From Blastococcus sp. CT_GayMR20 (GTDB taxonomy: Bacteria; Actinomycetota; Actinomycetes; Mycobacteriales; Geodermatophilaceae), in NCBI RefSeq assembly GCF_004570345.1, contig NZ_SPQM01000170.1:1-8785 (forward strand): 8,785 nucleotides of DNA, given 5' to 3'. Below are positions 1 to 8,785 of the stretch, piece by piece. The position numbers and the translations under genes are program-made. The notes below the pieces were generated by a model. It did no database searches, was not told where the DNA came from, and was given only the letters and a program-made list of their open reading frames with translations. How positions within the stretch are numbered: the stretch's first letter is position 1; each line of letters starts with the position of its first letter.

Positions 1-2
1 AC

Positions 3-1691
3 AACGCCGGCCTGCAGCACGTGGCCCCGCTGCACGAGTTCCCCGTCGACCGCTTCTCCTACATCCTGCGGCTGATGCTGGAGGCCCCGTTCCGGCTGGT
101 CCGCGGCGCGCTGCCGCACATGTACGACCCGACCCGGCGTGACACGTACATGAGGGTGACCGACGGCTCGGTGTCCGCCCGGTTCCAGGCGCTGCGCCTC
201 CCCATGGGAGCCGGTCTCGGCGGCCTGGTGGCCCAGCGGGCCGCTCCCTACGCGACGGCGAGCTACTTCGAGGACGCGCGCTTCCGGCACACCAGCGAGA
301 TCAACGACGGCGTCCGTGACGAGGGGCTCGTCGCGATCCTCGGGGTGCCGCTGATCCGGGGCTCCCAGGTGATCGGCGTCCTCTACGCCGCCGACCGCGC
401 CGAGCGCAGCTTCGACCGGTCGGAGGTCGCCCTCCTCGGCTCCCTCGCGGCGCACGCGGCGATCGCACTCGACAACGCCCGCCTGCTCGAGGAGACGCGG
501 GCCGCCCTCGACGAGCTGTCGGCCGCCAGCCGGGAGCGCCGGGCCTACACCGCCTCGGTGGAGCGGGCCGCGAGCGCGCACGACCGGTTCATCGACGTCG
601 TCCTCCGGGGCGGCGGGGTCGAGGACGTCGCCGTCGCCGTCACGGAGGCGCTGGGCGGCAGCATCACCGTGCTGGACGAGGAGGGCAGAGGAACCCCGGA
701 GGGCTCCCCCACCGGCGCGGGCCTGCCGCCCGACCCCGCGGGAGCGCTGGCGATGTCCCGCACCACCGGCCGCACGGTGCGCGACGGAAGCTGGTGGACC
801 GCCGCGGTCACCGTGGACAGCGAGCTGCTGGGCGGGCTGGTCCTGCACCGGGACGACGAACTCTCCGACTCCGACCAGCGCATCCTCGAGCGCGCCGCCC
901 TCGTCACGGCGCTGCTGCTGCTCATCCGCCGCACCGCGGGCGAGGCCGAGAACCGCGTGCGCGGCGAACTGCTCGAGGAGCTGCTGGGCCCGACGGTGCG
1001 CGATCCGGACGGGCTCCGGGAGCGGGCGCGGCGGCTGGGTGCGGACCTCGACCGCCCGCACGCCGTCGTGGTGGCCCGGGTGGAGGAGCGCTGCCGTGGA
1101 CGGGCCCTGGCCGCGGCGACCCACCTGGCGGCGACCCGCGGTGGCCTGGCCGGCGCGCACGACGGCTGTGTGGTGCTCTGCCTGCCCGACGTCGAGCCCG
1201 ACGTGGCGGCCGCCACCGTGTGCCGGGAGCTGAGCGGTGCCGCCGGCCCGGTGACCGTCGGCGGGGCGGGGCCGGTCCGGGGGCCGGGTGCCGTCGGCGC
1301 CGCCCACGAGGAGGCGGCCCGCTGCGCGGCGACGCTCGTGGCGCTGGGCCGGACGGGCGGCTCGGCCAGCGCGGCGGAGCTGGGCTTCTTCGGCCTGCTG
1401 GTCGGCGACGGCCGGGACGTGCGGGGCTTCGTCGAGACCACGCTCGGGCCCGTGCTGGAGTACGACGCCAAGCGCGGCACCGAGCTCGGGGCGACGCTGC
1501 AGGCGTTCTTCCAGGCCGGCGCCTCCCCCGCGCGTGCCGCCGAGGCCCTGCGCGTGCACGTCAACACCGTCACGCAGCGCCTGGAACGGGTCGGACGGCT
1601 GCTCGGCACGGACTGGAACTCGCCCGGCCGCGCCTTGGAGGTGCAGCTCGCCCTGCGGCTGCACCGCCTGACCGGCGCCGTCCCCGACTGA
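3..1691 (+). CDS. GAF-domain PucR/CdaR-type HTH transcriptional regulator, 5'-partial (left copy)
   Basis: Probable cytoplasmic DNA-binding regulator with an N-terminal sensory GAF domain; ligand and targets are unknown. The frame is open to the window edge, so the gene probably starts outside. The first start codon inside is GTG at 21, and residues below are counted from it (556 aa). A GAF domain spans about 35-158, with the run ARFQALRLPMGAGLGGLVAQ near 53 and EGLVAILGVPLIRGSQVIGVLYAADR-like sequence near 101-127. A helical, probably coiled-coil linker follows to about 190. A second sensor-like section runs to about 300, then a CdaR GGDEF-like region at about 320-450. The PucR C-terminal helix-turn-helix lies at about 488-550 (RVHVNTVTQRLERVGRLLGT). 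This order is typical of actinobacterial PucR/CdaR regulators. Residues 1-35 fit the expected first GAF helix and strand poorly. The gene ends 114 bases before the next gene on the same strand. Confidence 0.85.
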   Translation, partial: NAGLQHVAPLHEFPVDRFSYILRLMLEAPFRLVRGALPHMYDPTRRDTYMRVTDGSVSARFQALRLPMGAGLGGLVAQRAAPYATASYFEDARFRHTSEINDGVRDEGLVAILGVPLIRGSQVIGVLYAADRAERSFDRSEVALLGSLAAHAAIALDNARLLEETRAALDELSAASRERRAYTASVERAASAHDRFIDVVLRGGGVEDVAVAVTEALGGSITVLDEEGRGTPEGSPTGAGLPPDPAGALAMSRTTGRTVRDGSWWTAAVTVDSELLGGLVLHRDDELSDSDQRILERAALVTALLLLIRRTAGEAENRVRGELLEELLGPTVRDPDGLRERARRLGADLDRPHAVVVARVEERCRGRALAAATHLAATRGGLAGAHDGCVVLCLPDVEPDVAAATVCRELSGAAGPVTVGGAGPVRGPGAVGAAHEEAARCAATLVALGRTGGSASAAELGFFGLLVGDGRDVRGFVETTLGPVLEYDAKRGTELGATLQAFFQAGASPARAAEALRVHVNTVTQRLERVGRLLGTDWNSPGRALEVQLALRLHRLTGAVPD

Positions 1692-1805
1692 CCGCGACCG
1701 ATCAGCCGTCCCAGCAGGCCCACGGGGACGTGCCGGCCATGGGACGACGGTCGGCAGCGGCACCACGTCCGGTCACGGCCGAACGTCCCCTCCTACGCTG
1801 GACCG
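1692..1805 (+). promoter_or_regulatory. Intergenic region with probable leaderless promoter (left copy)
   Basis: This stretch separates the regulator from the 293-aa protein gene. A TACGCT at 1794-1799 matches the actinobacterial -10 consensus TANNNT. It lies six bases before the GTG at 1806, so transcription would begin at or next to the start codon, giving a leaderless mRNA. No convincing Shine-Dalgarno precedes the GTG, which agrees with this. The -35 region (about 1771-1776, GGTCAC) is weak. A short possible hairpin (CGTCCC 1708-1713 with GGGACG 1725-1730) has no T-run and is not convincing as a terminator. Promoter function is inferred. Confidence 0.4.
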
Positions 1806-2687
1806 GTGCCCGTGCTCCTCGACCTCCTGCCGCCCGAGGTCTGGACGGCGCGCTCCGCCGCGCACGCGGAACGGGTCGACGCCCTCACAGCGGGCGCCCG
1901 TGCGCGCCGGGCGGCCGGGCAGCGCCATCCGGTCGAGGACTTCCTCTACGAGTACTACAACACCCGGCCGTCGACGTTGCGGCGCTGGCACCCCGGTCCG
2001 CACGTCGCGCTGACCGGGCCGGCTCCGCACGGGGACTGGCGCTGGTACGCGACGGACGGCGGGACCGTGCGCCTGGACGTCGACGCCTTCCTCGCCGACC
2101 GCGGGGACACCGTCCGGTTCGTGCAGGGGCTCCTCGCCGCCACCGCCCGGCGGCCGGCGTTCACCGGCTGCTTCGGGCTGCACGAATGGGCGATGGTCTA
2201 CCGCGCCGGCGAGCACCGGCACACCGTCCCGCTGCGGCTCGGCCAGGCCGGCACGAACGCCGTCGTCGAGGCGCACCCCGTCCGGTGCACCCACTTCGAC
2301 GCCTTCCGCTTCTTCACGCCCGCCGCCGTCGGGCTCAACCGGGTGCGACCGACCCGTGCCACCCAGCCCGAGCTCGAGCAGCCCGGCTGCCTGCACGCCA
2401 CGATGGACCTCTACAAGTGGGCGCTGAAGCTCTCCCCCGCGACGCCGTCCGAACTGGTCGCCGACTGCTTCGAGCTCGCCGCCGACGTCCGGACGCTGGA
2501 CATGCGGGCGTCCCCGTACGACCTGCGTGACCACGGCTACGAGCCGGTGGCGATCGAGACCCCCGAGGGCAAGGCGGAGTACGTCGCTGCCCAGCGCGGG
2601 TTCGCCGAGCGCGGCGCCGTCCTCCGCTCCCGGCTGGTCGACGTGTGCGATGCGCTGTCCGATCCGGGACGTACGGTCGACGGGTGA
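1806..2687 (+). CDS. Conserved actinobacterial protein, often labelled 3-methyladenine DNA glycosylase (left copy)
   Basis: A complete 293-aa protein starting at GTG 1806; another GTG at 1812 is an alternative start. It resembles a family widespread in actinobacteria and commonly labelled 3-methyladenine DNA glycosylase. That label is recalled, not demonstrated: I see no helix-hairpin-helix motif or recognisable glycosylase catalytic residues, so DNA-repair activity is unproven. Conserved-looking blocks are HPVEDFLYEYYNTRPSTLRR (41-60), GLHEWAMVYR (124-133), HFDAFRFFTPAA (163-174) and MDLYKWALKL (200-209), all rich in aromatic residues and histidines. No signal peptide or membrane segment is visible, so it is probably cytoplasmic. 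Its stop overlaps the phosphatase start in a GTGA, which indicates a translationally coupled operon. The putative leaderless promoter lies immediately upstream. Confidence 0.82.
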   Translation: MPVLLDLLPPEVWTARSAAHAERVDALTAGARARRAAGQRHPVEDFLYEYYNTRPSTLRRWHPGPHVALTGPAPHGDWRWYATDGGTVRLDVDAFLADRGDTVRFVQGLLAATARRPAFTGCFGLHEWAMVYRAGEHRHTVPLRLGQAGTNAVVEAHPVRCTHFDAFRFFTPAAVGLNRVRPTRATQPELEQPGCLHATMDLYKWALKLSPATPSELVADCFELAADVRTLDMRASPYDLRDHGYEPVAIETPEGKAEYVAAQRGFAERGAVLRSRLVDVCDALSDPGRTVDG

Positions 2688-3514
2688 CCTCCACGCGCAC
2701 CGGCCGCTGGGTGCGGCTCGACGGCACCACCAACACCCGCGACCTCGGCGGCCTGCCCACCACCGACGGCGGCACGACGGTGCCGGGCCGCATCCTGCGC
2801 AGCGACAACCTGCAGACCCTCAGCGAGGACGACGTCCGGCGGCTCGTGGGCGAGATCGGCCTGCGCGAGGTGATCGACCTGCGGACCACCGCGGAGATCC
2901 TGCTGGAGGGGCGCGGCCCGCTGCGGGACGTCGACGAGGTCACCCACCGCCACTTCAGCCTGCTGCCCGAGCGGGGCCACCACACCGACGTCTTCGCCGT
3001 CGAGGAGTCCGACCCGGCCGACCTGCCGGAGGGCTGGCTGGAGTCGCTCCTCCCGCGGCAGGTCGCCGAGCACGACGAGGGGGAGCCGCCCGCCGTCCGT
3101 TCCTACCTGGGCTACCTCGGGCAGCGTGCCGACAACGTGGTCGCCGCGCTCCGGGCCCTCACGGCGACCGACGAGGGCGCCTCGGTGGTGCACTGCGCCG
3201 CCGGCAAGGACCGGACAGGTGTCGTGTGCGCGCTGGCCCTGGCGGTCGCCGGTGTGGGGCACGACGACATCGTGGCCGACTACGCGATGACGGCCGAGGT
3301 GATCGACGCCCTGGTCGCCAAGCTCGCCGCGTCACCGACGTACGCCGAGGACATGGTCAGCCGGGACGTCACCAGCCACACGCCCCGGGCGGCGACGATG
3401 GACCGCGTGCTGCGGCTGCTCGACGAGCGGTACGGCGGGCCGACCGGCTGGCTGGAGACGCACGGCTTCGGCGCCGACGAGCAGGCCCGGCTGAGGTCCC
3501 GCCTCCGGGAGTGA
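2684..3514 (+). CDS. PtpB-like tyrosine/serine protein phosphatase (left copy)
   Basis: A predicted cysteine-dependent phosphatase of 276 aa that hydrolyses phosphate esters, probably phosphotyrosine in proteins; the substrate is unknown. The P-loop HCAAGKDRTG fits HCX5R, with nucleophile Cys171 and phosphate-binding Arg177. The N-terminal segment TTNTRDLGGLPTTDGG, followed by GRILRSDNLQTLSEDD, is characteristic of the Y_phosphatase3 / mycobacterial PtpB-like family, and the length suits it. No signal peptide is seen. GTG 2684 is preferred over the in-frame ATG at 2645 because it forms a GTGA overlap with the upstream stop and puts the family's conserved N-terminus about ten residues in. Translation is probably coupled to the upstream gene. 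The stop lies 4 bases from the convergent cyclase stop. Mycobacterial PtpB is secreted into host cells, but nothing here indicates export. Confidence 0.9.
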   Translation: MTSTRTGRWVRLDGTTNTRDLGGLPTTDGGTTVPGRILRSDNLQTLSEDDVRRLVGEIGLREVIDLRTTAEILLEGRGPLRDVDEVTHRHFSLLPERGHHTDVFAVEESDPADLPEGWLESLLPRQVAEHDEGEPPAVRSYLGYLGQRADNVVAALRALTATDEGASVVHCAAGKDRTGVVCALALAVAGVGHDDIVADYAMTAEVIDALVAKLAASPTYAEDMVSRDVTSHTPRAATMDRVLRLLDERYGGPTGWLETHGFGADEQARLRSRLRE

Positions 3515-3518
3515 CCCG

Positions 3519-4453
3519 TCAGCGGGCGGACCGGTGGCCTTGCTTGTGCCGGTACATGGCCGCGTCGGCCTCACGGAGCAGCTGCTCCGCGGTGCCGTCG
3601 GAACCGACGGCGTGGACCGCGACACCGACGCTGGTGCCGACCGCCACGTCGGTCCCGTCCAGCCGGAAGGGCTCGGCGAAGCAGCCGGTGACCCGGTCGG
3701 CCAGCCGGCGGGCGTCCTCCGGGGACACCAGGCCGGGCAGGATGATCGCGAACTCGTCGCCGCTGAGCCGCCCGACGGTGTCCCCGGGCCGGACCACGCC
3801 GCGCAGTCGCGCCGCCACCTGACGGAGCAGCTCGTCGCCGGCCGCGTGACCGAGGGTGTCGTTGACCTCCTTGAAGCGGTCGAGGTCGCAGAACAGGACG
3901 GCGACGTGGGCGCCCTCGGCGGCGGTCGGGATGCCGGCCACGAGGCGGTCGAGGAAGAGCACGCGGTTGGGCAGTCCGGTCAGCGCGTCGTGCGTGGCCT
4001 GGTGGCTCACCGTCGCCAGCAGCCGGGCCTTCTGCAGGGCCGTCGTCGCCTGGTCGCCGACACCTCGGAGCCGGGCCATGACGTCCCCGTCGAGCTGCGT
4101 GGGCGCCTGCCCCCTGGTCCACCCGGCGGTGGCGACACCCAGGAACGTCGTGCCGGCCAGCAGGGGCACCGCGACGACGTCGGACGTGCCGACCCCGTCG
4201 AGGAGCCGCCGCAGCGCCGGGCTGCTCGTGTCGCTGGAGATGATCCGGGGCTCCCGGTCGGTGAGCATGCCGACGAGCTCGGGGACGTCCTCGGCGCGCA
4301 GCGCGGTGGTCTGCAGCAGGTCGGCGCCGGCGTCGGTCAGCCCGGTCGAGGCGTGCGACCGCAGCGAGCCCGTGGCCGGGTCCCACATCAGGATGCCGGC
4401 GCTCGTGCAGCCGACGATCCGCGGCAGCGCCTCGCTGACGATGTCGCTGACCG
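3519..4453 (-). CDS. GAF-GGDEF diguanylate cyclase, N-terminus cut at palindrome centre (longer left copy)
   Basis: Predicted to make the second messenger c-di-GMP from two GTP. About 310 C-terminal residues remain; the 5' end is lost at the centre. A GAF domain fills roughly the first 140 residues, starting with SDIVSEALPRIVG-like sequence encoded in the spacer. A helix leads to HDALTGLPNR (about 154), the usual start of a GGDEF domain. The domain contains FCDLDRFKEVNDTLGHAAGD, which holds the metal-binding Asp, then the active-site motif as SGDEF (3750-3764) instead of GGDEF. The inhibitory I-site RPGD (3780-3791) is intact, five residues before it. The C-terminus has the usual ADAAMYRHKQ. 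The Ser variant occurs in some active cyclases, so activity is plausible. There is no membrane segment in the visible part. The gene is convergent with the phosphatase. Reading beyond 4453 enters antisense sequence and is not native. Confidence 0.88.
4333..4453. other. Palindrome spacer (unpaired centre)
   Basis: These 121 bases occur once and separate the two arms. On the minus strand they encode about 40 residues of the cyclase GAF domain, in frame with the left copy. On the plus strand, in frame with the right copy, they give arginine- and alanine-rich sequence with no GAF character. The spacer therefore belongs to the left arm. CGGTCAGC at 4334-4341 can pair with GCTGACCG at 4446-4453, next to the arms and separated from perfect register by one extra T at 4333. 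Confidence 0.95.
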
Positions 4454-5267
4454 CGCCGGCGCCGACCTGCTGCAGACCACCGCGCTGCGCGCCGAGGACG
4501 TCCCCGAGCTCGTCGGCATGCTCACCGACCGGGAGCCCCGGATCATCTCCAGCGACACGAGCAGCCCGGCGCTGCGGCGGCTCCTCGACGGGGTCGGCAC
4601 GTCCGACGTCGTCGCGGTGCCCCTGCTGGCCGGCACGACGTTCCTGGGTGTCGCCACCGCCGGGTGGACCAGGGGGCAGGCGCCCACGCAGCTCGACGGG
4701 GACGTCATGGCCCGGCTCCGAGGTGTCGGCGACCAGGCGACGACGGCCCTGCAGAAGGCCCGGCTGCTGGCGACGGTGAGCCACCAGGCCACGCACGACG
4801 CGCTGACCGGACTGCCCAACCGCGTGCTCTTCCTCGACCGCCTCGTGGCCGGCATCCCGACCGCCGCCGAGGGCGCCCACGTCGCCGTCCTGTTCTGCGA
4901 CCTCGACCGCTTCAAGGAGGTCAACGACACCCTCGGTCACGCGGCCGGCGACGAGCTGCTCCGTCAGGTGGCGGCGCGACTGCGCGGCGTGGTCCGGCCC
5001 GGGGACACCGTCGGGCGGCTCAGCGGCGACGAGTTCGCGATCATCCTGCCCGGCCTGGTGTCCCCGGAGGACGCCCGCCGGCTGGCCGACCGGGTCACCG
5101 GCTGCTTCGCCGAGCCCTTCCGGCTGGACGGGACCGACGTGGCGGTCGGCACCAGCGTCGGTGTCGCGGTCCACGCCGTCGGTTCCGACGGCACCGCGGA
5201 GCAGCTGCTCCGTGAGGCCGACGCGGCCATGTACCGGCACAAGCAAGGCCACCGGTCCGCCCGCTGA
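4454..5267 (+). pseudogene. GAF-GGDEF diguanylate cyclase fragment (shorter right copy)
   Basis: A mirror duplicate of the minus-strand cyclase, starting abruptly at the arm boundary. About 270 residues remain: the second part of the GAF domain (from AGADLLQTTALR) and the complete GGDEF domain with SGDEF at 5022-5036 and I-site RPGD at 4995-5006. It lacks the roughly 40 GAF residues that the left copy keeps in the spacer, and it has no native start. The frame stays open back through the spacer and the left arm to a GTG at 3534, giving a 577-codon ORF, but the part before 4454 is antisense or out-of-frame sequence. If the palindrome is an artefact, this gene does not exist in the genome. Confidence 0.8.
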
Positions 5268-5271
5268 CGGG

Positions 5272-6102
5272 TCACTCCCGGAGGCGGGACCTCAGCCGGG
5301 CCTGCTCGTCGGCGCCGAAGCCGTGCGTCTCCAGCCAGCCGGTCGGCCCGCCGTACCGCTCGTCGAGCAGCCGCAGCACGCGGTCCATCGTCGCCGCCCG
5401 GGGCGTGTGGCTGGTGACGTCCCGGCTGACCATGTCCTCGGCGTACGTCGGTGACGCGGCGAGCTTGGCGACCAGGGCGTCGATCACCTCGGCCGTCATC
5501 GCGTAGTCGGCCACGATGTCGTCGTGCCCCACACCGGCGACCGCCAGGGCCAGCGCGCACACGACACCTGTCCGGTCCTTGCCGGCGGCGCAGTGCACCA
5601 CCGAGGCGCCCTCGTCGGTCGCCGTGAGGGCCCGGAGCGCGGCGACCACGTTGTCGGCACGCTGCCCGAGGTAGCCCAGGTAGGAACGGACGGCGGGCGG
5701 CTCCCCCTCGTCGTGCTCGGCGACCTGCCGCGGGAGGAGCGACTCCAGCCAGCCCTCCGGCAGGTCGGCCGGGTCGGACTCCTCGACGGCGAAGACGTCG
5801 GTGTGGTGGCCCCGCTCGGGCAGCAGGCTGAAGTGGCGGTGGGTGACCTCGTCGACGTCCCGCAGCGGGCCGCGCCCCTCCAGCAGGATCTCCGCGGTGG
5901 TCCGCAGGTCGATCACCTCGCGCAGGCCGATCTCGCCCACGAGCCGCCGGACGTCGTCCTCGCTGAGGGTCTGCAGGTTGTCGCTGCGCAGGATGCGGCC
6001 CGGCACCGTCGTGCCGCCGTCGGTGGTGGGCAGGCCGCCGAGGTCGCGGGTGTTGGTGGTGCCGTCGAGCCGCACCCAGCGGCCGGTGCGCGTGGAGGTC
6101 AC
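5272..6102 (-). CDS. PtpB-like tyrosine/serine protein phosphatase (right copy)
   Basis: Identical 276-aa mirror duplicate of the plus-strand phosphatase at 2684-3514, with the same HCAAGKDRTG P-loop (Cys171, Arg177) and the same GTGA overlap with the upstream gene (overlap at 6099-6102). It lies 4 bases from the stop of the cyclase fragment. Function and limits are as for the left copy. Its separate existence in the genome depends on the palindrome being real. Confidence 0.85.
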   Translation of the reverse strand: MTSTRTGRWVRLDGTTNTRDLGGLPTTDGGTTVPGRILRSDNLQTLSEDDVRRLVGEIGLREVIDLRTTAEILLEGRGPLRDVDEVTHRHFSLLPERGHHTDVFAVEESDPADLPEGWLESLLPRQVAEHDEGEPPAVRSYLGYLGQRADNVVAALRALTATDEGASVVHCAAGKDRTGVVCALALAVAGVGHDDIVADYAMTAEVIDALVAKLAASPTYAEDMVSRDVTSHTPRAATMDRVLRLLDERYGGPTGWLETHGFGADEQARLRSRLRE

Positions 6103-6980
6103 CCGTCGACCGTACGTCCCGGATCGGACAGCGCATCGCACACGTCGACCAGCCGGGAGCGGAGGACGGCGCCGCGCTCGGCGAACCCGCGCTGGGCAGC
6201 GACGTACTCCGCCTTGCCCTCGGGGGTCTCGATCGCCACCGGCTCGTAGCCGTGGTCACGCAGGTCGTACGGGGACGCCCGCATGTCCAGCGTCCGGACG
6301 TCGGCGGCGAGCTCGAAGCAGTCGGCGACCAGTTCGGACGGCGTCGCGGGGGAGAGCTTCAGCGCCCACTTGTAGAGGTCCATCGTGGCGTGCAGGCAGC
6401 CGGGCTGCTCGAGCTCGGGCTGGGTGGCACGGGTCGGTCGCACCCGGTTGAGCCCGACGGCGGCGGGCGTGAAGAAGCGGAAGGCGTCGAAGTGGGTGCA
6501 CCGGACGGGGTGCGCCTCGACGACGGCGTTCGTGCCGGCCTGGCCGAGCCGCAGCGGGACGGTGTGCCGGTGCTCGCCGGCGCGGTAGACCATCGCCCAT
6601 TCGTGCAGCCCGAAGCAGCCGGTGAACGCCGGCCGCCGGGCGGTGGCGGCGAGGAGCCCCTGCACGAACCGGACGGTGTCCCCGCGGTCGGCGAGGAAGG
6701 CGTCGACGTCCAGGCGCACGGTCCCGCCGTCCGTCGCGTACCAGCGCCAGTCCCCGTGCGGAGCCGGCCCGGTCAGCGCGACGTGCGGACCGGGGTGCCA
6801 GCGCCGCAACGTCGACGGCCGGGTGTTGTAGTACTCGTAGAGGAAGTCCTCGACCGGATGGCGCTGCCCGGCCGCCCGGCGCGCACGGGCGCCCGCTGTG
6901 AGGGCGTCGACCCGTTCCGCGTGCGCGGCGGAGCGCGCCGTCCAGACCTCGGGCGGCAGGAGGTCGAGGAGCACGGGCAC
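6099..6980 (-). CDS. Conserved actinobacterial protein, often labelled 3-methyladenine DNA glycosylase (right copy)
   Basis: Identical 293-aa mirror duplicate of the gene at 1806-2687, starting at the GTG at 6978-6980 and coupled by a GTGA overlap to the phosphatase copy. The same caution applies: the glycosylase name is a family label, with no catalytic motif seen. It is probably a duplicate created by the fold-back and not a true paralogue, since it shows no divergence. Confidence 0.78.
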   Translation of the reverse strand: MPVLLDLLPPEVWTARSAAHAERVDALTAGARARRAAGQRHPVEDFLYEYYNTRPSTLRRWHPGPHVALTGPAPHGDWRWYATDGGTVRLDVDAFLADRGDTVRFVQGLLAATARRPAFTGCFGLHEWAMVYRAGEHRHTVPLRLGQAGTNAVVEAHPVRCTHFDAFRFFTPAAVGLNRVRPTRATQPELEQPGCLHATMDLYKWALKLSPATPSELVADCFELAADVRTLDMRASPYDLRDHGYEPVAIETPEGKAEYVAAQRGFAERGAVLRSRLVDVCDALSDPGRTVDG

Positions 6981-7094
6981 CGGTCCAGCGTAGGAGGGGA
7001 CGTTCGGCCGTGACCGGACGTGGTGCCGCTGCCGACCGTCGTCCCATGGCCGGCACGTCCCCGTGGGCCTGCTGGGACGGCTGATCGGTCGCGG
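6981..7094 (-). promoter_or_regulatory. Intergenic region with probable leaderless promoter (right copy)
   Basis: Exact reverse complement of 1692-1805, compared directly base by base. The TACGCT -10-like element falls at 6987-6992 on the minus strand, six bases before the GTG start of the 293-aa protein copy. Promoter function is inferred. Confidence 0.38.
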
Positions 7095-8783
7095 TCAGTC
7101 GGGGACGGCGCCGGTCAGGCGGTGCAGCCGCAGGGCGAGCTGCACCTCCAAGGCGCGGCCGGGCGAGTTCCAGTCCGTGCCGAGCAGCCGTCCGACCCGT
7201 TCCAGGCGCTGCGTGACGGTGTTGACGTGCACGCGCAGGGCCTCGGCGGCACGCGCGGGGGAGGCGCCGGCCTGGAAGAACGCCTGCAGCGTCGCCCCGA
7301 GCTCGGTGCCGCGCTTGGCGTCGTACTCCAGCACGGGCCCGAGCGTGGTCTCGACGAAGCCCCGCACGTCCCGGCCGTCGCCGACCAGCAGGCCGAAGAA
7401 GCCCAGCTCCGCCGCGCTGGCCGAGCCGCCCGTCCGGCCCAGCGCCACGAGCGTCGCCGCGCAGCGGGCCGCCTCCTCGTGGGCGGCGCCGACGGCACCC
7501 GGCCCCCGGACCGGCCCCGCCCCGCCGACGGTCACCGGGCCGGCGGCACCGCTCAGCTCCCGGCACACGGTGGCGGCCGCCACGTCGGGCTCGACGTCGG
7601 GCAGGCAGAGCACCACACAGCCGTCGTGCGCGCCGGCCAGGCCACCGCGGGTCGCCGCCAGGTGGGTCGCCGCGGCCAGGGCCCGTCCACGGCAGCGCTC
7701 CTCCACCCGGGCCACCACGACGGCGTGCGGGCGGTCGAGGTCCGCACCCAGCCGCCGCGCCCGCTCCCGGAGCCCGTCCGGATCGCGCACCGTCGGGCCC
7801 AGCAGCTCCTCGAGCAGTTCGCCGCGCACGCGGTTCTCGGCCTCGCCCGCGGTGCGGCGGATGAGCAGCAGCAGCGCCGTGACGAGGGCGGCGCGCTCGA
7901 GGATGCGCTGGTCGGAGTCGGAGAGTTCGTCGTCCCGGTGCAGGACCAGCCCGCCCAGCAGCTCGCTGTCCACGGTGACCGCGGCGGTCCACCAGCTTCC
8001 GTCGCGCACCGTGCGGCCGGTGGTGCGGGACATCGCCAGCGCTCCCGCGGGGTCGGGCGGCAGGCCCGCGCCGGTGGGGGAGCCCTCCGGGGTTCCTCTG
8101 CCCTCCTCGTCCAGCACGGTGATGCTGCCGCCCAGCGCCTCCGTGACGGCGACGGCGACGTCCTCGACCCCGCCGCCCCGGAGGACGACGTCGATGAACC
8201 GGTCGTGCGCGCTCGCGGCCCGCTCCACCGAGGCGGTGTAGGCCCGGCGCTCCCGGCTGGCGGCCGACAGCTCGTCGAGGGCGGCCCGCGTCTCCTCGAG
8301 CAGGCGGGCGTTGTCGAGTGCGATCGCCGCGTGCGCCGCGAGGGAGCCGAGGAGGGCGACCTCCGACCGGTCGAAGCTGCGCTCGGCGCGGTCGGCGGCG
8401 TAGAGGACGCCGATCACCTGGGAGCCCCGGATCAGCGGCACCCCGAGGATCGCGACGAGCCCCTCGTCACGGACGCCGTCGTTGATCTCGCTGGTGTGCC
8501 GGAAGCGCGCGTCCTCGAAGTAGCTCGCCGTCGCGTAGGGAGCGGCCCGCTGGGCCACCAGGCCGCCGAGACCGGCTCCCATGGGGAGGCGCAGCGCCTG
8601 GAACCGGGCGGACACCGAGCCGTCGGTCACCCTCATGTACGTGTCACGCCGGGTCGGGTCGTACATGTGCGGCAGCGCGCCGCGGACCAGCCGGAACGGG
8701 GCCTCCAGCATCAGCCGCAGGATGTAGGAGAAGCGGTCGACGGGGAACTCGTGCAGCGGGGCCACGTGCTGCAGGCCGGCGTT
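7095..8783 (-). CDS. GAF-domain PucR/CdaR-type HTH transcriptional regulator, 5'-partial (right copy)
   Basis: Identical mirror duplicate of the regulator at 3-1691. The frame is open to the window's right edge, and the first internal start is the GTG at 8763-8765, giving 556 aa. The domain order is the same: GAF, helical linker, CdaR-like middle, PucR C-terminal helix-turn-helix. Both copies are cut at exactly the same base at their 5' ends. Two independent loci in an arbitrary genomic window would not do this, but one fragment folded back on itself would. Confidence 0.8.
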   Translation of the reverse strand, partial: NAGLQHVAPLHEFPVDRFSYILRLMLEAPFRLVRGALPHMYDPTRRDTYMRVTDGSVSARFQALRLPMGAGLGGLVAQRAAPYATASYFEDARFRHTSEINDGVRDEGLVAILGVPLIRGSQVIGVLYAADRAERSFDRSEVALLGSLAAHAAIALDNARLLEETRAALDELSAASRERRAYTASVERAASAHDRFIDVVLRGGGVEDVAVAVTEALGGSITVLDEEGRGTPEGSPTGAGLPPDPAGALAMSRTTGRTVRDGSWWTAAVTVDSELLGGLVLHRDDELSDSDQRILERAALVTALLLLIRRTAGEAENRVRGELLEELLGPTVRDPDGLRERARRLGADLDRPHAVVVARVEERCRGRALAAATHLAATRGGLAGAHDGCVVLCLPDVEPDVAAATVCRELSGAAGPVTVGGAGPVRGPGAVGAAHEEAARCAATLVALGRTGGSASAAELGFFGLLVGDGRDVRGFVETTLGPVLEYDAKRGTELGATLQAFFQAGASPARAAEALRVHVNTVTQRLERVGRLLGTDWNSPGRALEVQLALRLHRLTGAVPD

Positions 8784-8785
8784 GT

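Follow-up and report, generated by a model that had tools for sequence, protein, structure and literature searches.

A perfect 4.3-kb inverted repeat in a Blastococcus-like contig is probably a fold-back chimera formed in vitro

The window, i.e., the whole stretch of 8785 bases analysed here (75% GC, no N), consists of two arms separated by a short spacer. The gene order of the left arm is a dehydrogenase fragment fused to a PucR-type regulator gene, a gene for a conserved protein, a tyrosine phosphatase gene and, on the opposite strand, a truncated GGDEF gene. The features are listed below with the evidence for each.

1–4332, plus strand: left arm, resembling native chromosome apart from one deletion-type junction near 124–129 (arm identity; genes and their order common to Blastococcus and Geodermatophilus loci).
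3–123, plus strand: SDR dehydrogenase gene fragment of about 40 residues, presumably 3-hydroxybutyrate dehydrogenase-like, fused in frame to the regulator (comparison with relatives' loci).
124–129, plus strand: second junction, ACGACC, with a probable microhomology of 4–6 nt and about 0.8 kb missing compared with relatives (relatives' loci; homologue alignment).
126–1691, plus strand: PucR-type regulator (GAF, GGDEF_2 and HTH_30) without its N-terminal ~118 residues (domain scan; homologue alignment).
1806–2687, plus strand: conserved protein of 293 residues (no Pfam match at E ≤ 0.001; relatives' loci).
2645–3514, plus strand: tyrosine phosphatase family protein (Y_phosphatase3), start uncertain (domain scan; relatives' loci).
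3519–4453, minus strand: diguanylate-cyclase-type (GGDEF) protein, C-terminal ~310 of ~682 residues, cut by the fold-back (domain scan; homologue alignment).
4333–4453, minus strand: spacer, native GGDEF-gene sequence that lies upstream of the left-arm part of the gene and forms the fold-back loop (its translation aligns in frame with intact homologues).
4334–4341, plus strand: CGGTCAGC, pairing with GCTGACCG at 4446–4453, with base 4333 bulged (complementarity inspection).
4446–4461, plus strand: GCTGACCG followed by CGCCGGCG, the presumed annealing 3' end, with the junction at 4453/4454 and a likely 8-nt overlap, CGCCGGCG (complementarity; relative L087).
4454–8785, minus strand: right arm, exact inverted copy of 1–4332 (base comparison of the arms).

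The preliminary description of this DNA had claimed exact 4332-bp arms, reverse complements of each other, around a 121-bp spacer, and the base-level comparison confirmed this: all 4332 positions of 1–4332 pair with 4454–8785 with zero mismatch. When the first 4392 bases were compared with their mirror positions, 43 mismatches were found, spanning 4333 to 4392 and confined to the spacer (4333–4453), whose 121 bases are asymmetric and not self-complementary. Given the base composition of the window, the log10 probability of 4332 consecutive matches arising by chance is about −2176. Both contig ends stop at the same arm base with no unique flank beyond either arm, and thus the arms need not be two copies sequenced independently: an assembler that took a single path twice would produce the same exact mirror.

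The best four relatives among the 80 loci listed were Blastococcus and Geodermatophilus contigs that share the arm genes in part, and by its gene content and order the arm looks like ordinary chromosome of these genera. In G043 the GGDEF gene lies past base 4,000,000 of one contig and is therefore chromosomal, which suggests that the locus in the window is chromosomal too; plasmid and phage searches with query 3400–4453 gave no indication to the contrary. Despite having no Pfam match, the protein encoded at 1806–2687 recurs at 71–78% identity next to the regulator in 17/20 loci with both dehydrogenase and regulator. Of the 42 family genomes with the GGDEF-type gene, six have two copies at E ≤ 1e-200 (L001, at 3853–4776 and 6001–6915, and also G023, G024, G032, G043 and G065), and copies adjoin in tandem in G001, G024, G032, G043 and G065.

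The ownership of the spacer was indicated by its minus-strand translation. It continues the left-arm GGDEF gene unbroken, and the peptide AVSDIVSEALPRIVGCTSAGILMWDP aligns with seven homologues of 681–687 residues; it is therefore the left arm with the spacer that is native, and the right arm that was copied in inverted form. The fold-back at 4453/4454 interrupts the gene in mid-frame, so that ~372 upstream codons are lost (682 minus 310). The closest homologue, P0001, has 90% identity over the 310-residue fragment (the best among the 120 listed of 719 found, with 7994 candidates scored), and this homologue search did not recover the strain's own GGDEF sequence beyond the junction. At E ≤ 1e-200 the gene was found in 42 of 76 family genomes, the other 34 giving no match at this threshold. 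Forty-six of the 48 places listed were free of stops from residue ≤8 to ≥676 of 682, the two exceptions being G057 (residues 1–616), which contains a TGA, and G071, which matches residues 189–679 only.

At base level, the reading frame crosses the junction site in 31/31 related loci, with no stop in the 90 bases shown, and the peptide across the site is often LLxLAHELxxxxDAxAV. These loci comprised 27 of the 30 fetched from the gene search of the 76 genomes (three duplicates omitted) and the four best relatives. None of the matches listed for a 140-base junction query against the 76 family genomes spans the whole query. Below E = 1e-7 the matches are one-sided, with a short extension across the junction (query base 71); among the matches listed, the one in G042 extends furthest, to base 95. 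Weaker matches that straddle the junction (E 5e-7 to 8e-5, 72–83% identity), for example bases 45–130 in G075 (contig C35) and 39–127 in G068 (contig C193), lie in these two genomes on contigs other than those with the GGDEF gene and were taken as chance similarity of GC-rich DNA. A 33-base junction pattern gave no exact match in viral contigs.

The sequence at the turn permits a self-priming mechanism without proving it. When base 4333 is skipped, CGGTCAGC provides eight extra bases paired with GCTGACCG. In relative L087, the native bases directly before CGGTCA are CGCCGGCG, identical to the window's turn, where most other relatives differ; the join therefore probably lies inside an 8-nt overlap. 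The eight complementary nucleotides are thus seen directly, and the likely 8-nt overlap is read from L087 in place of the strain's own continuation. The left arm plus spacer contains 107 inverted 8-mer pairs at 80–280 nt spacing, against a mean of 75 (range 55–105) in 50 block shuffles; such pairs are plentiful in GC-rich DNA, and eight nucleotides alone are accordingly weak evidence. The bulged 8 + 8 stem occurs once in the window, not at all in the left arm plus spacer and in 0/200 shuffles, a test that carries little weight because it is partly circular, one half of the stem being arm by construction.

The short overlap also bears on whether assembly error alone, with no chimeric molecule, could have produced the contig. 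The symmetrical ends suggest that the assembler may have used one path twice. Assemblers normally need k-mer overlaps longer than about eight bases, however, and the two sides of the junction probably share only ~8 exact bases (16/17 with the bulge), too short for such an overlap. Some chimeric reads were therefore probably required, and an error of assembly by itself is improbable.

The preliminary description had also offered a fused end of a linear replicon as an alternative. A covalently closed hairpin end would indeed assemble as a mirror contig, but hairpin telomeres are expected to have a tight palindromic turn and a resolvase, neither of which was seen in the window. The loop here is instead 121 bases of asymmetric coding DNA, and the turn sits in frame inside a GGDEF gene that is continuous there in relatives. 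No telomere-resolvase domain was present in the four distinct arm genes scanned, although such a gene could lie outside the window. This origin thus found no support, and we regard it as barely credible. With query 3400–4453, 606 plasmid records and one phage record matched, but in none did a single place account for 80% of the query; the matches listed were partial, many of them to genes annotated as EAL or diguanylate cyclase. No Rfam model scored at or above its gathering threshold. A linear-replicon or a phage or plasmid origin was rejected on these partial matches and the in-frame, mid-gene turn.

Near the outer end of the arm, the window matches the dehydrogenase up to ~123 and the regulator from 126 to 1691, giving an apparent in-frame fusion at 3–1691 with a mirror copy at 7095–8783. 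The regulator was found at E ≤ 1e-200 in 20 of the 76 family genomes, two of them with partial matches (G042, at a contig end, and G036). In 20/20 of these regulator loci the dehydrogenase gene precedes the regulator in the same orientation, and the points joined in the window are 767–839 bp apart. Judged from the relatives, the microhomology at this join is ACGA to ACGACC. The fused N-terminus is covered by none of the 120 homologues listed (6018 found). One of the homologues, P0121, comes from a different contig (up to 18,241 bases) and has a normal N-terminus; it agrees with the window's regulator at 521/523 aligned residues, and the two differences are the residues at the second join. In L001–L003 the dehydrogenase is present with no regulator match in the stretch compared, so the regulator is not universal. 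On the comparison with these loci, the dehydrogenase–regulator fusion appears to arise from a deletion-type junction of about 0.8 kb. The preliminary description had missed this abnormal junction at ~124–129; its view of the contig as an artefact stands and is strengthened by the junction, for which the 20/20 relatives and P0121 provide the support. Two gene-cutting microhomology breakpoints within 4.45 kb are more indicative of in vitro template switching than of a stable genome.

A real inverted duplication was considered against the same evidence. In the strain or a subpopulation, a fold-back duplication could arise if replication switched templates at short inverted repeats, and in vivo fold-back inverted duplications do carry short inverted repeats at the turn, with a short loop, as here. 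The window differs from them in that it shows no unique flanks, breaks genes and is absent from the relatives examined: the GGDEF gene broken by the turn is continuous at the site in every locus compared, the second junction breaks two further genes, and both ends stop at the same arm base. Long perfect palindromes with short loops are, moreover, unstable in bacteria. In vivo origin is thus unlikely, and template switching during replication very much so. We give scarcely any weight to the proposition that a Blastococcus-like soil actinobacterium carries, in some cells at least, a perfect inverted duplication of 4.3 kb (loop, 121 bases) that arose when replication folded back at a short inverted repeat and that the cell tolerates although instability would be expected.

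We consider that the palindrome is an in vitro fold-back chimera, formed by MDA-like self-priming and symmetrised by the assembler, and probably not a biological feature (probability roughly 0.88). The preliminary description had preferred an amplification or assembly chimera, a preference now backed by the uninterrupted GGDEF gene of the 31 loci, the MDA-like junction features and the second, deletion-type junction in the same 4.45 kb. In the proposed sequence of events, a single strand of a Blastococcus/Geodermatophilus-like chromosome would have come to an end within the GGDEF gene or been displaced there. The 3' end of this strand (...GCTGACCG-CGCCGGCG) would have annealed back onto CGCCGGCG-T-CGGTCAGC, ~121 bases away, and polymerase extension of the folded end, presumably during MDA of the sample, would have produced a hairpin copy. 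The assembler may then have traversed arm, spacer and arm again, which would explain why the arms are identical and the ends symmetrical. Near the outer end, ~0.8 kb would have been lost through another template switch, at the 4–6 nt microhomology.

These steps resemble chimera formation as described for MDA by Lasken and Stockwell (2007; PMC1855051), in whose data 406/475 chimeras were inverted, most junctions had complementary stretches of 2–21 nt where a displaced 3' end primed again, and the segments joined tended to lie under 10 kb apart. The fold-back in the window is likewise an inverted join of nearby segments with a short complementary stretch at the junction, the second segment being inverted relative to the genomic orientation, since the relatives' gene continues at the site without turning back. 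Its 121-nt loop falls inside the preferred distance of 80–280 nt given for phi29-amplification chimeras of human DNA (PMC5372508). By contrast, the chimeras in PMC1855051 were described from reads, whereas here there is a long, perfectly symmetrical contig from a sample in which the use of MDA is itself a supposition. Direct (deletion-type) chimeras were rarer in that study (69/475, only 11 of these under 10 kb), and the second junction is accordingly a poorer match to MDA than the first and could be a genuine deletion.

The contig offers a worked example for recognising a fold-back chimera, in which the spacer is assigned to the arm that owns it and relatives are then shown to read through the turn. 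The ends of fold-back contigs are inverted repeats, and CheckV counts inverted terminal repeats (20 bp or longer) among the signs that a viral genome is closed, which it compares, where it can, with estimates of completeness (PMC8116208). Fold-back contigs also present genes twice and can give rise to spurious fusions, here that of the dehydrogenase with the regulator.
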